From: Eublepharis macularius
Lineage: Eukaryota; Chordata; Lepidosauria; Squamata; Eublepharidae
NCBI RefSeq assembly: GCF_028583425.1
Contig: NC_072791.1
Location: 17,503,868-17,567,867, forward strand
Reading direction: 5' to 3'
Length of the DNA stretch: 64,000 nt
Part shown: positions 2,953 to 41,440 of the stretch, in pieces
How the letters are laid out: each line of letters opens with the position of its first letter
Position numbering within the stretch: the first letter of the stretch is position 1
The notes under the pieces: model-generated
Databases searched by the model: none
Told to the model about the DNA's origin: nothing
The model's input: only the letters and a program-made list of their open reading frames with translations
Translations under genes and position numbers: made by a program

Positions 2953-3692
2953 CTGTGGAATTTTTCTTTATTTGGACTATAAACAATAACATAAAAGCTA
3001 TAGGGCAAATCCACGTGCCCTCAGAGCATCCCGGCGTTGTGCTAAATGTTCACTAAACACCCGGAAGTATAGTGTCTTTCTAGTGCAATTTCAGAAATCG
3101 CGCTAGAAAGACACTATAATTCCGGGTGTTTAGCGAACATTTAGTGCAACACTGGGACGCTCCAAGAGTGTGTGGATTTGCCCATAGACAGCAAACATAG
3201 AAGATTTGAAAAACAACATTCTAAAAAGAAGACACACTAAAAATACATAAACAAATGAAAAAAGAGAAAAAAGAAGAAAAAACCTTAAACTACAGATTGA
3301 GTTCCAATTTTCTCTAAGTTAAACATAAGAGCCTCTTTTTTCTGTTGTTCATGGTTCTTAATCCATAAATCCAGATATCATCAAATCCTTATTATCCATT
3401 TCACGTAAAAAGTCTGTAAACGGTTTCCATTCAGTCAAAAATGTAACTAATGTCTTTTTCCTAATCGGTGAAGTAAGTTTTGCCATTGACGCAAACACCA
3501 GCAATTTTATCCACCATTCCTCCACTGTAGGCAATGTTGGAGTTTCCCACTTTTGTGCATAGATTATTCTTGCTGCCATAATGAAATATAAAAACAAAGT
3601 TCCAAAGCTTCTTTCCAAGGGGCTGTCCATTATTCCCAACAAAAAAAGTTCTGGTTTCAACTGAATTTTAATCTTCAAAATCTTCTGAATCG
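2953..3692 (-). mobile_element. L1 LINE 3' fragment (ORF2 C-terminus + 3' UTR)
   Basis: Minus-strand frame 3678-3358 encodes the end of L1 ORF2, including AARIIYAQKWETPTLPTVEEW and AKLTSPIRK, a conserved C-terminal L1 block. The rest, 2953-3357, is 3' UTR in reverse. An 18-bp TSD tgtgtacatcagattttc flanks it (2935-2952 and 3693-3710). It was 5'-truncated on insertion. It hosts a small MITE at 3003-3183, and its right TSD was later the target of the half-L1 at 3721. Confidence 0.85.
3003..3183. mobile_element. Foldback MITE inside L1 3' UTR
   Basis: A 181-bp near-palindrome with termini GGGCAAATCCAC / GTGGATTTGCCC and inner arms such as cactaaacacccgg against ccgggtgtttag. It is flanked by ata on both sides (3000-3002 and 3184-3186), a 3-bp TSD. 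This is compatible with a PIF/Harbinger-like or related element. Non-coding. Confidence 0.75.
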
Positions 3693-3969
3693 TGTGTACA
3701 TCAGATTTTCAAATGTTGGTGATTCGGTTTCGTTTTCTCGGCCATATCGGACGCTCCTCTCCGCAGGTCCAAGAGGAAGCGCCTGAGCAGCCTGACCGGG
3801 CGGCTGATCTGCGAAGATTAGCCCCCAGGACTCCCAGTGAGGGAGGCAGGGTCCGGAACGCGGCGGGAAGAACCCCCTGAAATCGATGCGGGGGATAAAT
3901 TGCCCGTTTGTCCCTATGGAGGCCGGCAGACGTGCGTGGCACCTCGAGTGCTGCTGGGCCATGGAAAAC

Positions 3970-5891
3970 AGGAAAACAACGAGAACCAGGGAATCACAAA
4001 GATATATAAAGTTAATATTGATAGTTCAAAGTGCAAACGTGCAAAATTGTGTCAAATTTGAATAAATACAGTCAAAATTACAGAGTCCATCAGTGACCAA
4101 TTCATACAGTACAAGATAAATATCTACAGTCCATAGCATTCGTTAGACAATTGTAAAGTGCAAAATGCTATCAATGAAAAGCCGCCAGTAGGTGGATGAC
4201 GGTGCAAGATGTTATCTCATTAGCAGTCCATAGAATAAATATATGAATGCGTAGAGAATCGCCGACGGGAATATGCAGGCAATTTTTCAATAACCCGTTT
4301 CGTGAGTACAAACTCACTTCATCCTGGGCGTACAGCAATTAGGACTGGGCACACTCTCTGAAGCCTGTATCAGTACAAATCTTTGTGTCTGGTTTCCTAA
4401 ACCACCTCTTGATCGAGGACTTCAGAGAGTTTGGAAAGTACTGCGGACAATCCTCGTATATGTAGGTGGAGATCCTGAACTGACCCGCTTCTCACAGCCT
4501 CTCCTTGCACGCCAGTTCCCACAACCTTCTCATAGGGTAACTGGGGTGGGATGAAAATGTTTCATACCCCCCAACATCCCATTTAAAAACAAGCAGATCT
4601 CCAATACAGAGCAGGGAAAACGCTGAAACAAACGTATATCAAACCATACAAAAGGGAATTACAGAACATCGACCATATCCCTTTAAGAAAGTCCCTCAAT
4701 GATGAGTATAAACAGTCTTAAACAGGCATTGCCTACTGCTCCATGCCTGATCCTGACAGGTGAAGGAAGGCAGCAGGCTTTACTACCTGCTCTGCTCCTG
4801 ATTCAGGCAGGTAGAAGGGGAGGGGCAGACATTGCTGCATGCTTGGCTCCTGACTCAGTGTCTTTTACAATTCTTTCATAGTACCTGGAGAGCGACGCCG
4901 GTAGCAGCTACCTGGCGTCGCTACCGGCGTCGCTCTCCAGGTACTATGAAAGAATTGTAAAAGACACTGAGTCAGGAGCCAAGCATGCAGCAATGTCTGC
5001 CCCTCCCCTTCTACCTGCCTGAATCAGGAGCAGAGCAGGTAGTAAAGCCTGCTGCCTTCCTTCACCTGTCAGGATCAGGCATGGAGCAGTAGGCAATGCC
5101 TGTTTAAGACTGTTTATACTCATCATTGAGGGACTTTCTTAAAGGGATATGGTCGATGTTCTGTAATTCCCTTTTGTATGGTTTGATATACGTTTGTTTC
5201 AGCGTTTTCCCTGCTCTGTATTGGAGATCTGCTTGTTTTAAAATGGGATGTTGGGGGGTATGAAACATTTTCATCCCACCCCAGTTACCCTATGAGAAGG
5301 TTGTGGGAACTGGCGTGCAAGGAGAGGCTGTGAGAAGCGGGTCAGTTCAGGATCTCCACCTACATATACGAGGATTGTCCGCAGTACTTTCCAAACTCTC
5401 TGAAGTTCTCGATCAAGAGGTGGTTTAGGAAACCAGACACAAAGATTTGTACTGATACAGGCTTCAGAGAGTGTGCCCAGTCCTAATTGCTGTACGCCCA
5501 GGATGAAGTGAGTTTGTACTCACGAAACAGGTTATTGAAAAATTGCCTGCATATTCCCGTCGGCGATTCTCTACGCATTCATATATTTATTCTATGGACT
5601 GCTAATGAGATAACATCTTGCACCGTCATCCACCTACTGGCGGCTTTTCATTGATAGCATTTTGCACTTTACAATTGTCTAACGAATGCTATGGACTGTA
5701 GATATTTATCTTGTACTGTATGAATTGGTCACTGATGGACTCTGTAATTTTGACTGTATTTATTCAAATTTGACACAATTTTACACGTTTGCACTTTGAA
5801 CTATCAATATTAACTTTATATATCTTTGTGATTCCCTGGTTCTCGTTGTTTTCCTGTTTGTAGTTACCGGGGTTGCCCGTTGTTTTTCTCC
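3970..5891. mobile_element. 1.9-kb near-perfect palindromic insertion
   Basis: Two arms, 3966-4905 and 4920-5859, are reverse complements around a 14-nt loop (4906-4919). Paired positions always sum to 9825, so there is no net indel over 940 bp. I see at least four single-base differences (around 4042, 4287, 4407 and 4583). The unit is flanked by a 14-bp direct repeat gggccatggaaaac (3956-3969 and 5892-5905), and 32 extra bases follow the right arm. Each arm carries gatgaag - hairpin gtgagtttgtactcac - gaaac (5502-5528 on +, mirrored near 4297-4323), the layout of hammerhead-like motifs described in Penelope-like elements. The class is uncertain; nothing is convincingly coding. Confidence 0.8.
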
Positions 5892-5905
5892 GGGCCATGG
5901 AAAAC

Positions 5906-6955
5906 GGCAAAGAGCAGAACTAGGCGGAAGCCTGTAAGTAAGCGAATCCCTTCTGTTATTACAAGCGCACGTGAAGGAGTGGTGGGATCTGAAGCTAAGA
6001 AGGCTCGTTCTTCCCCCTCGCTGAGTTTCAGAATTTGGTTGGCGGTCCCCCCCCCCCCCTAAAATGGCAGCGAAAAAGCAGAGTCCCGCTTTGGGCAAGT
6101 CAATCTCGGCTGCCCTGCAGGGGAAAGGAGAGTCGCTCGAGGACTTGGTGAAGAGGTTGGTTATTGAAGCCATAAAGCCCTTTGTTGACAAGCTGAATGA
6201 AACAGATCAAAGGGTGGGCTTAATTGAGAGCGAAGTGAAAACCATTAAGGAAGCAGCGGGGGGGGGCAGAGAAGTCTGCTCGGGAAAATGCATCACTCTT
6301 GAGGGCAACGAATAAAGAGTTAAAGCTGGTGGAGAACCAGCTGATCGGGCTACAAGTGGAACGAACACAGACAATTTTGCGCCTCCAGAATGTGAAAGAG
6401 GAGGAAAATGAGGATTTATGGGGTCTGGCCTCGGAACTATTGGCGACACCCGCGAGGGCAACTAAAGAAGAGGTAAAAAGCGCCATTTTGGAAGTCCGTC
6501 GGGCTTCTTCAAAATATGCAACAAAGCGTCAGCTGCCTCGCGAGATCATCGTCGATTTTTCATCTAAGAGGATCCGAGACACTATCCTATACAACTCATA
6601 CAATGCGGATCTGGATTTTCTGGGTAATAAAGTTAAGATACTGAAGGATGTCCCATTTTTAGTTCGGAAAAGAAGATTTAAGTATAAAAAGTTCGCAGCT
6701 CTTCTGAGGGAACGTGGAATAAAGTATAAATGGCTATTTCCGGAAGGTATCTGGTTTAGTTACAAAGATCAAGTTTACAAGATAATATCAGAAGATCAAC
6801 TAAGGGATTTTGAGGACAAAAATCAAGAATTTCAGCAAGACACCAAGCAAGAAGAAAAGGATTTGAAGTCTGAAGGGGGGGGAGGGAACGAGCACTGCGG
6901 TTGCAGTTGCTCAGAGAGAACTGCGTCCGAGGCCCGGGGGGGGAGGAAGACTTAA
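5906..6955 (+). pseudogene. L1 ORF1 (RNA-binding chaperone), frameshifted
   Basis: ORF1p of the half-L1. Three consecutive frames make up the protein. First is a basic N-terminal part (to about 6045). Then comes a coiled-coil start, MAAKKQSPALGK (6064) through LNETDQRVGLIESEVKTIKE. Last is a long frame (6299-6955) with the rest of the coiled coil (ELKLVENQLIGLQVERTQ), the RRM-like domain (LPREIIVDFSSKRIRDTIL) and the C-terminal domain with RERGIKYKWLFPEGIWF, a hallmark of L1 ORF1p (Transposase_22). The two frame changes fall at a C-run (6047-6059) and a G-run (6257-6266), so they may be slippage or base-call errors. The C-terminal tail is acidic/Gly-rich. ORF1p trimers coat L1 RNA in the cytoplasm. 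Confidence 0.85.
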
Positions 6956-7204
6956 TTTGGATTGTAATCTGTATTTTGCAAGGTCAACCACTCCATCAAT
7001 ATCTTACAAAGTTTTAATTTTTTAATAATGGCAGTATGAAGGGAAAGCATTATTTGTAGTGTAGTGTTGTTATATGTTGCTGTTTTTTTTTCTTTCCTTC
7101 CCCTGCCCCCCTTCTTTCCCTCTGTATTGTTAGTTAATGTAGGTAATAATAAAAAAAAGATTTTCAAATGTTGGTTGAGTTCATGAAGGGTGATTTCTTT
7201 TTAT

Positions 7205-26600: not shown

Positions 26601-26932
26601 AGGGTTGCCAGCCGGCAGGGGGTGGCTAGAGATCTCCCAGAATTACAACTGATCTCCAAGCCGTAGTGATCAGTTCCCCCGGAGAAACTGGCTGCTTTGG
26701 GGGATGAACTCTATGGCATTATATCTTGTTGGGGTCCCTCTCCTCCCCAAATCCTTTCCAGGCTCCACTCCCAGATATTTCCCAACCTAGAGCTGGCAAC
26801 CCTCCCCAAATCTCCAGATATTTCCCAACCTAGAGCTGGCAACCCTCCCCAAATCTCCAGATATTTCCCAACCTAGAGCTGGCAACCCTCCCCAAATCTC
26901 CAGATATTTCCCAACCTAGAGCTGGCAACCCT
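26601..26932. mobile_element. Mutator-like MITE with amplified 43-bp end
   Basis: AGGGTTGCCAGC family copy (core ctctatggcattata) whose right end, ccccaaatctccagatattt...gctggcaaccct, is tandemly repeated as identical 43-bp units at 26804-26846, 26847-26889 and 26890-26932, after a diverged first unit (26761-26803). Flanks ccagctcct / cccagttcc resemble a decayed 9-bp TSD. Confidence 0.85.
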
Positions 26933-26939
26933 CCCAGTT

Positions 26940-40339: not shown

Positions 40340-40432
40340 AAAGCCTCTAACTTCCTTTGTTTTGTTTTTAGAACTTCAGGGGGACCCAAATGAGGGAGGC
40401 ATCCACTGGGTGAGCCTGCCCACGTCAGCAAC
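40340..40432 (+). other. GPR132: GPR132 splice acceptor and 5' UTR with uORF
   Basis: A branch-point-like ctctaac (40345-40351) and a T-rich tract end in ttttgtttttag, AG at 40370-40371, so the exon starts at 40372. The 61-nt leader in this exon holds an upstream ORF, ATG at 40390 to TGA at 40413 (peptide MREASTG), out of frame with the main start. Human GPR132 also has non-coding or N-terminal upstream exons; none could be identified in the repeat-rich 40 kb upstream. Confidence 0.75.
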
Positions 40433-41440
40433 ATGGCTACTAACCACTCCACATGTAACCAGACTCTTCCCTTCGAAGAAAGCAGGCAGCTTCTGGTCGG
40501 GGTGTACAGCGTCGTCTTTGCCGTGGGCCTGCCAGCCAACTGCATCACCACCTTCTTGACCATTATCCAGATCCACAGGGGAAACATTGTCGCCATATAC
40601 TTGTTTGGCCTTTCTCTGTGTGAGATGATGTACTTGAGTACCCTCCCGCTCTGGATCATCTATACCCAGAATGACCACAAGTGGACTATGGGGCCCACAT
40701 CTTGCAAGATGACCGGATACATCTTCTTCTGCAACATCTACATCAGTATTCTTCTCCTGTGCTGCATTTCAGTCGATCGCTATGTGGCAGTGGTATATGC
40801 CTTGCGGAGCAGGGGATTGCGGAGCCAGAAGATCGCCGGGGTGGTCACGTCTGTCCTCTTTGCTGTGGTTGCAGTGGTCTATAGCCCTGTATTTTTTAAC
40901 AACATCCAGGACTCAAATAGCACTACCTGCTTTGAAACGCCACTCAAGCCCTCCCTGGCTGTCTTCAGCATCATCCGGTTCCTAATTGGCTTCGTCGTTC
41001 CTTTCATAATTCTCATTTTCATGAATTACAAAATTTTTCAAAGCATTAAAATCAGCTACAGCCTGAGCCCGCACCAGAAATCTAAAGTGAAGTACCTGGC
41101 CATTGCAATTATTTCCATCTTTGTGGTCTGTTTTGCTCCCTACCATTTTGTGCTGCTCATACGATCTGTTCACTTCTTTTTGGACCGAGACAACAGTTGC
41201 ACCTTTGAGAACAAAACATACACCGTATTTACAGTCTTCCTGTGTTTATCCACTGCGAACAGTGTTGCAGACCCGTTTGTTTATGTTCTGGCTAGTGAAA
41301 ACGCAAGACATGAGATATGTCGGACTTTCAGGGCAGTCGGGGTCCGTTTCTTGAATGAATCCAAGACAGACAGCAACAAGCCCGACAGTACCCAAAAGAC
41401 ACCTGTGGATCCTTCGTTGGGATATAAAGAGGACAGGTAG
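40433..41440 (+). CDS. GPR132: G protein-coupled receptor 132 (G2A)
   Basis: A complete 335-aa class A receptor in one exon. In vertebrates it is a plasma-membrane receptor of the proton-sensing/lipid group, responding to oxidised fatty acids and lysolipids, mainly in leukocytes. Visible: FEESR before TM1, as in mammalian G2A; TM1 PANC (N36); TM2 LSLCE with E64 at the usual D2.50 place, as in human G2A; C91 and C166 for the TM3-ECL2 disulfide; CNIYISILLLCCISVDRY with DRY at 115-117; no TM4 Trp; CFAPYH in TM6 (233-238); NSVADPFVY in TM7 (276-284); N-glycosylation sequons at N4, N9, N162 and N260; and a Ser/Thr-rich tail that is shorter than the human one (human protein 380 aa). The start has a strong Kozak context (gcaacATGG). 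GPR4, GPR65 and GPR68 are less similar across TM2-TM3. Stop at 41438-41440. Confidence 0.94.
   Translation: MATNHSTCNQTLPFEESRQLLVGVYSVVFAVGLPANCITTFLTIIQIHRGNIVAIYLFGLSLCEMMYLSTLPLWIIYTQNDHKWTMGPTSCKMTGYIFFCNIYISILLLCCISVDRYVAVVYALRSRGLRSQKIAGVVTSVLFAVVAVVYSPVFFNNIQDSNSTTCFETPLKPSLAVFSIIRFLIGFVVPFIILIFMNYKIFQSIKISYSLSPHQKSKVKYLAIAIISIFVVCFAPYHFVLLIRSVHFFLDRDNSCTFENKTYTVFTVFLCLSTANSVADPFVYVLASENARHEICRTFRAVGVRFLNESKTDSNKPDSTQKTPVDPSLGYKEDR

Follow-up and report, generated by a model that had tools for sequence, protein, structure and literature searches.

How does a 1.9-kb palindrome with hardly any differences between its arms come to stand in a genome, and from what was it made? The question is raised by positions 3966-5859 of the window, the whole 64,000-nt stretch of DNA analysed here (C2:17503868-17567867), and to answer it we searched one arm against the window's own genome (2.24 Gb, 72 contigs), which we judge from its repeats to be squamate-like.

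Anatomy of the palindrome and its surroundings

Comparison of the window with itself shows that the arms, 3966-4905 and 4920-5859, are complementary over 940 bp with exactly four mismatches (4042/5783, 4296/5529, 4418/5407 and 4585/5240). This bears out the first-pass annotation, which had described 940-bp arms with about four differences; the pairing also ends where that annotation placed it, since matches over the 60 positions beyond the arm ends number 15, the chance level. The flanking 14-bp direct repeat that it reported, GGGCCATGGAAAAC, is likewise present, at 3956-3969 and 5892-5905, and the inserted segment is 3970-5891; the final four bases of the left repeat also belong to the left arm. 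The right side has an extra 32 nt (5860-5891), the tail of a Penelope-like element (PLE), which the left arm lacks. A single pair of target-site duplications (TSDs) encloses the whole, in agreement with the earlier proposal that the palindrome arrived already inverted, as one insertion.

The outer part of each arm appears, from its relatives in the genome, to be the 3' part of a PLE, which we name PLE-1, and the inner ~550 bp consists of three exons that lie in transcript order on the plus strand of C1. The parts of the insertion are as follows.

3956-3969, no strand: left 14-bp TSD, GGGCCATGGAAAAC (direct-repeat comparison)
3966-4353, minus strand: left-arm PLE-1 3' exon, 388 nt, no tail, its outer 4 nt within the TSD (BLAST against 30 other scored genome loci)
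4354-4633, minus strand: left-arm captured exon B, 280 nt (source C1:241111536-241111815)
4634-4855, minus strand: left-arm captured exon A2, 222 nt (source C1:241087418-241087639)
4856-4918, minus strand: left-arm captured exon A1, the apparent first exon of a second PLE-like family, exceeding right-arm A1 by 13 nt (4906-4918) (C1 source ends at 241087005)
4919, no strand: one-base filler at the head-to-head junction (comparison with L046)
4920-4969, plus strand: right-arm captured exon A1, 50 nt, one mismatch against the C1 source (sequence comparison)
4970-5191, plus strand: right-arm captured exon A2, identical to the C1 source
5192-5471, plus strand: right-arm captured exon B, 3 of 280 positions different from the C1 source
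5472-5859, plus strand: right-arm PLE-1 3' exon, starting exactly at the PLE-1 3' splice site (comparison with unspliced copies)
5501-5528, plus strand: hammerhead-like stem-loop, GGATGAAGTGAGTTTGTACTCACGAAAC (read by eye)
5860-5891, plus strand: PLE tail, right arm only (18 of the 19 inverted loci have a tail at one outer end only)
5892-5905, no strand: right 14-bp TSD (direct-repeat comparison)

The centre of the palindrome, AGCTACCTGGCGTC, does measure the 14 nt first assigned to it but is not a plain loop: 13 nt, AGCTACCTGGCGT, prolong the left arm into the sequence that naturally precedes A1 on C1, and are followed by one additional C and then by the right arm.

The palindrome sits inside an element with an A-rich 3' end, at 3703-7175, which is bounded by an 18-bp direct repeat (3703-3720 and 7158-7175) and which we take to be L1-like and ORF1-only. 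Its frames gave no match in Pfam, and a search for its empty site among the fetched loci matched only the window's own copies. Elsewhere in the window there are a separate short palindrome at 3003-3183 (90-nt arms, 83% complementary, 1-nt gap; MITE-like), a tandem repeat at 26771-26935 (43-bp unit, 3.8 copies, 100% matches) and, at 40394-41440, an open frame of 348 codons, which on reading resembles a seven-helix receptor of the proton-sensing group.

The PLE-1 family and its inverted copies

Scoring was applied to the 40 best of 3,619 first-look candidates, so the copies described below are the best-scoring ones and not a census. Within this set the arm search gave 52 places: the two window arms, one match to the inner part only, and 49 matches to arm positions 1-390. 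These 49, which cover the outer ~388-390 bp, group into 30 scored loci besides the window. Of these, 18 have inverted neighbours, and at the remaining 12 the fetched stretch contains a single arm; single-arm status was judged within those stretches, which at nine of the 12 loci measure 2.6-5.5 kb. Widening the stretch revealed no mate for single-arm loci L029 and L031, and at L030 a partial inverted segment without the 3' end. The first-pass annotation had asked whether other copies are single units or palindromes, and whether they end at the same bases: head-to-head pairs make up 18 of the 30 loci scored besides the window, and related copies do stop at comparable bases. With the window included, the 19 scored inverted loci span 0.6 to 8.2 kb and are all head-to-head with the common end outward, and no tail-to-tail pair was found among the 18 others. 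The closest other PLE-1 copy among the best 40 of the 3,619 candidates has 97% identity.

The longer scored copies hold an open frame of ~760 codons with an RVT_1 domain (E-values of 2.1e-9 in L009, 3.9e-11 in L014 and 2.7e-9 in L024), and the window copy itself has no reverse transcriptase (RT). A GIY-YIG domain was matched in the L024 ORF (PF01541, residues 655-742, E=6.5e-4), marginally, as its 20.4 bits lie below the Pfam cut-off of 22.6; it was not matched in the ORFs of L009 (E up to 0.001) or L014 (E up to 5), whose C-termini read similar to that of L024. No scanned frame matched a transposase, the ORFs being RT/EN or without significant match. We assign the family to the PLEs because of these RT/GIY-YIG frames, the tail and the tandem copy contained in L014. 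The family has probably been mobile recently, judging from its identical-arm dimers and the long open RT frames of L009, L014 and L024; the arms of L009, L014 and L021-L024 are identical across the 340-345 bp compared, with few differences over the full arms.

The hammerhead core is CUGANGA. In the stem-loop at 5501-5528 the GAAAC is present and the core deviates in its first part; the corresponding left-arm fold has a z of -0.56, with 54 of 200 shuffles equally stable, and no hammerhead match was obtained from Rfam at E up to 1 or up to 5. Sub-threshold Rfam matches to MIR160, mir-279 and the like were dismissed as the usual output of palindromes.

A direct repeat of 14-19 bp, taken as the longest exact match near both ends and scored for the 19 inverted loci, encloses the whole dimer in 18 of them. 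Exactly one outer end is tailed, again in 18 of the 19; the exception, L009, is tailed at both ends and lacks a TSD. Counted along the 3' exon plus tail, the tailed ends of the 18 one-tail dimers fall at 418-420, whereas their non-tailed ends fall at 380-391 (11 dimers) or 325-369 (seven). Ten of the 12 scored single-arm copies end at 380-390 and the other two are tailed. Positions near 382 and 419 would thus both seem to behave like starts of reverse transcription. In an anole PLE, reverse transcription is described as starting at two adjacent sites that match the tail, and the enzyme as cutting and extending both target strands in vitro (PMC11167929).

That element, PAc of Anolis carolinensis (Penelope/Poseidon type), has in common with PLE-1, on the published description, the RT and GIY-YIG domains, the tandem pLTR layout, an optional tail of 30-40 nt and a hammerhead-like stem-loop; it differs in that the tailed and untailed ends of PLE-1 flank single head-to-head insertions, and in that the template of the window insertion includes spliced foreign exons (PMC11167929). 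The PAc paper makes no mention of splicing, palindromes or head-to-head copies, the word 'inverted' occurring once, for a blocked oligo end (PMC11167929).

The first-pass annotation held the palindrome to be either very young or maintained by gene conversion. Its youth is supported by a difference of 0.43% between the arms; with a rate near 1e-9 per site and year this would put the insertion at ~2 million years, a figure that is only indicative. Within loci the arms differ by 0-1.2%, against a between-locus median of 7.1%, in a comparison of 345 bp that took in 15 inverted loci and, among the 12 single-arm loci, the 10 other than L032 and L033, which are incomplete. Some loci have near-identical siblings, and for this reason the strictly closest relative is the arm's own mate in no more than 17 of 31 cases. 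Maintenance by gene conversion is not borne out. All four differences in the window are changes in the right arm, two as judged from related copies and two from the C1 source, and private changes across the 345 bp of 14 inverted loci (L014 left out) are evenly spread, with eight in tail arms and seven in non-tail arms; youth therefore suffices. The earlier interpretation thus stands as to one inverted insertion of young appearance and lacks support as to its upkeep, and it did not include the chimeric nature of the arms (PLE 3' part plus spliced exons), the one-sided tail or the commonness of inverted insertion in the family.

Captured exons and the spliced template

Just upstream of the common 390 bp, unspliced PLE-1 copies read CACTT, then GTGAGTATG...CATACTTACAG (in some copies CATACTTCACAG), then TGTGCCC, and spliced copies join CACTT directly to TGTGCCC, which indicates that PLE-1 carries an intron. 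In the window, exon B replaces the PLE-1 upstream sequence at this acceptor boundary, 5472. The source of exon B on C1 is preceded by TTTCCTTTAG and followed by GTGAGG, and two of the three right-arm differences from it are the changes found in the right arm only. The A2 source, ~24 kb upstream of that of B, is flanked by TTGTTTCAG and GTAAGT, and its 222 nt are identical to the exon, which includes a repeat occurring at many other places. A1 matches C1 as far as 241087005, with one mismatch in 50, where it is followed by GTAAGATG.

With up to 2 mismatches allowed, a 30-base segment of A1 is found at 53 places, both window arms counted. A1 belongs to a second PLE-like family, whose first exon it is. 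This family, represented by L064, L066, L056 and L046, has its own acceptor, TTATAG followed by TGCAATACTGAC, with spliced copies at L052 and L055. It too includes self-complementary stretches, of 577 bp (94%) in L064 and 618 bp (87%) in L066; the L064 stretch has A1 at its centre, and both of its arms are spliced.

Every exon junction falls at GT/AG sites in both arms, and the last joins PLE-1's own splice acceptor. Because the C1 sources lie on the same strand, in transcript order, with junctions on GT/AG, we conclude from the sequence that a spliced sense RNA served as template for both arms. The putative chimeric transcript would run A1-A2-B-PLE-1 3' exon. Its acceptor would come from a PLE-1 copy downstream on C1; the 49 kb that follow exon B yielded no sense PLE-1 donor, only an 83% antisense fragment (L057), and the copy may lie at a greater distance, be polymorphic or have been lost.

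The two arms agree in splice state in all 15 dimers in which both reach the junction. Both are spliced in L012, L015, L016, L019 and the window, there with foreign exons, and both keep the intron in the other ten (L009-L011, L013, L014 and L020-L024). L012, L017, L019 and L028 start at the same ACAGCGTCC, which is likely to be the transcription start. Non-PLE sequence stops exactly at the PLE-1 splice acceptor in L026 (865-967) and L039 (~2490-2577), and these pieces are possibly further captured exons; the putative capture in L026 has no second genome copy at up to 3 mismatches.

Processed retrocopies and LINE-1 chimeras also derive from spliced host RNA that enters the genome by reverse transcription and acquires a TSD. 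The window insertion differs from them in having no poly(A), a 3' end that is the PLE end, and the form of an inverted dimer.

Routes to a head-to-head dimer

The spliced sense RNA is present twice, as inverted arms with the element's 3' ends outward, together with one 14-bp TSD and one tail. The most probable explanation, in which we have good though not full confidence, is a single insertion of a non-autonomous Penelope-like RNA as a head-to-head dimer, by two-sided target-primed reverse transcription. Transcription would start at a PLE-2 promoter exon on C1 and cross 24 kb or more of host sequence; splicing would join the transcript to the 3' splice acceptor of a downstream PLE-1 copy. The PLE-1 enzyme would then nick both target strands ~14 bp apart and both 3' ends would prime reverse transcription, one at the tail-end start site and the other ~38 nt further in; both cDNAs would reach near the RNA 5' end, and their head-to-head joining would involve little homology or none. 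The least certain step is the use of one RNA molecule, and not of two similar ones, as template for both cDNAs. One RNA is suggested by the common splice state and by the unique exon chain in both arms; two RNAs from one locus could also give a shared splice state.

Junctions in other dimers, read from alignment ends (a reading that leaves out L016, L019 and L026), show overlaps of 1-4 nt in eight (L012, L015, L017, L020, L021, L022, L024 and L025) and filler of 1-19 nt in five (L009, L010, L011, L013 and L014); L018 has a 42-nt gap and L023 has ~1.4 kb of other sequence between the arms.

The mobility of PLEs has been called poorly understood (PMC11167929), and the choice between sense and antisense template, like the cause of head-to-head copies, was left open in 2013 (PMC3846280). 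For the window insertion the template strand is settled by spliced exons of a known locus in both arms, and the dimer mechanism becomes countable from genomes by tail position, arm length and splice state. Inverted PLE dimers are already known. We found no report of spliced-exon capture in palindromes or of the asymmetry of tail and arm length in an open-access library, which takes in few of the subscription papers, and this absence is weak evidence of novelty. The route offers PLEs a means of making near-perfect kilobase palindromes and of moving exons in a vertebrate-like genome. A more tentative extension, to which we give somewhat less than even credence, is that paired PLE-1 enzymes act on one RNA with start sites ~38 nt apart, each protomer cutting and priming one strand and the non-tail copy leading further. 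PLEs might then be built-in palindrome makers and exon traps, the intron's 3' acceptor near the priming sites mobilising upstream-transcribed sequence as mirror-image pairs.

A single target-primed cDNA that folds at its 3' end and copies itself would also give both arms, and we judge this snap-back reading unlikely for the window. Equal arms with a small centre do resemble a hairpin, and one kind of template is common to both arms. Furthermore, 12 of the 31 scored loci are single-armed in the fetched stretch, and three of these (L036, L038 and L039) have 5' foldbacks of 37-46 nt, likely snap-back products, which suggest that some such synthesis occurs. A snap-back copy cannot hold a tail that is absent from the primary arm, however, so the tailed arm would have to be the primary one and at least as long as the other. 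Instead, 15 of 18 one-tail dimers, the window among them (by 13 nt), have their longer arm on the non-tail side, and the tail arm is longer in L016, L021 and L026 (two-sided sign test by hand, ~0.008). The 18 comprise 17 simple dimers and L014, in which a tandem read-through that lacks a terminal tail forms the right arm; L009, with two tails, is omitted, and lengths were read by hand, not by one scripted rule. The difference is small in L011 (7 nt), L012 (12 nt), the window (13 nt) and L015 (15 nt); leaving these four out brings the count to 11 of 14 (~0.06, likewise by hand). In addition, the non-tail ends at 380-391 in 11 of 18 dimers match the end site of 10 of the 12 single copies. The longer non-tail arm in most dimers thus supports two separate priming events, one per target strand, as two-sided priming would have it.

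Self-priming on an antisense template, as favoured for rotifer Penelope, predicts the head-to-head arrangement (PMC3846280) and would suit the ten of 15 scored dimers that keep the PLE-1 intron, for which unspliced copies it may hold. The introns are out at sense GT/AG sites in both arms of the window, of four other PLE-1 dimers and of L064, which disfavours an antisense template for those spliced copies, and we regard this explanation of the window as very improbable. The Penelope of Adineta vaga is, on the account given of it, like PLE-1 in its head-to-head inverted pLTRs, one-sided tail, enclosing TSD, junction palindromes and host sequence between the pLTRs; there, a captured host gene has introns and an antisense template is favoured, whereas the captured pieces in the window are spliced sense exons, in both arms (PMC3846280).

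Another conceivable source of the chimera, in place of splicing, is template switching, with reverse transcription passing from one RNA to another. LINE-1 is said to produce chimeric insertions (PMC13174262) and the PLE-1 donor was not found near exon B, but all three junctions coincide exactly with canonical splice sites, the last of them at the acceptor that PLE-1 itself provides and that its spliced copies use; we hold switching to be highly unlikely.

Finally, although a tight single-locus palindrome is a frequent form of artefact and the paired outer 390-bp repeats resemble long TIRs, we give next to no weight to an origin at the DNA level (a local inverted duplication, a long-TIR DNA transposon, or an assembly or library artefact), against which stand the enclosing direct repeat, the asymmetric ends, mismatches on one arm only, the same anatomy at 18 other scored loci, and RT and GIY-YIG in longer copies with no transposase match in scanned frames. 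Repeat annotation could take such PLE palindromes for DNA transposons or artefacts. A DNA transposon with 390-bp inverted repeats was among the candidates considered here, and was dropped in view of the RT/EN encoded by longer copies and of direct repeats that vary from 14 to 19 bp.
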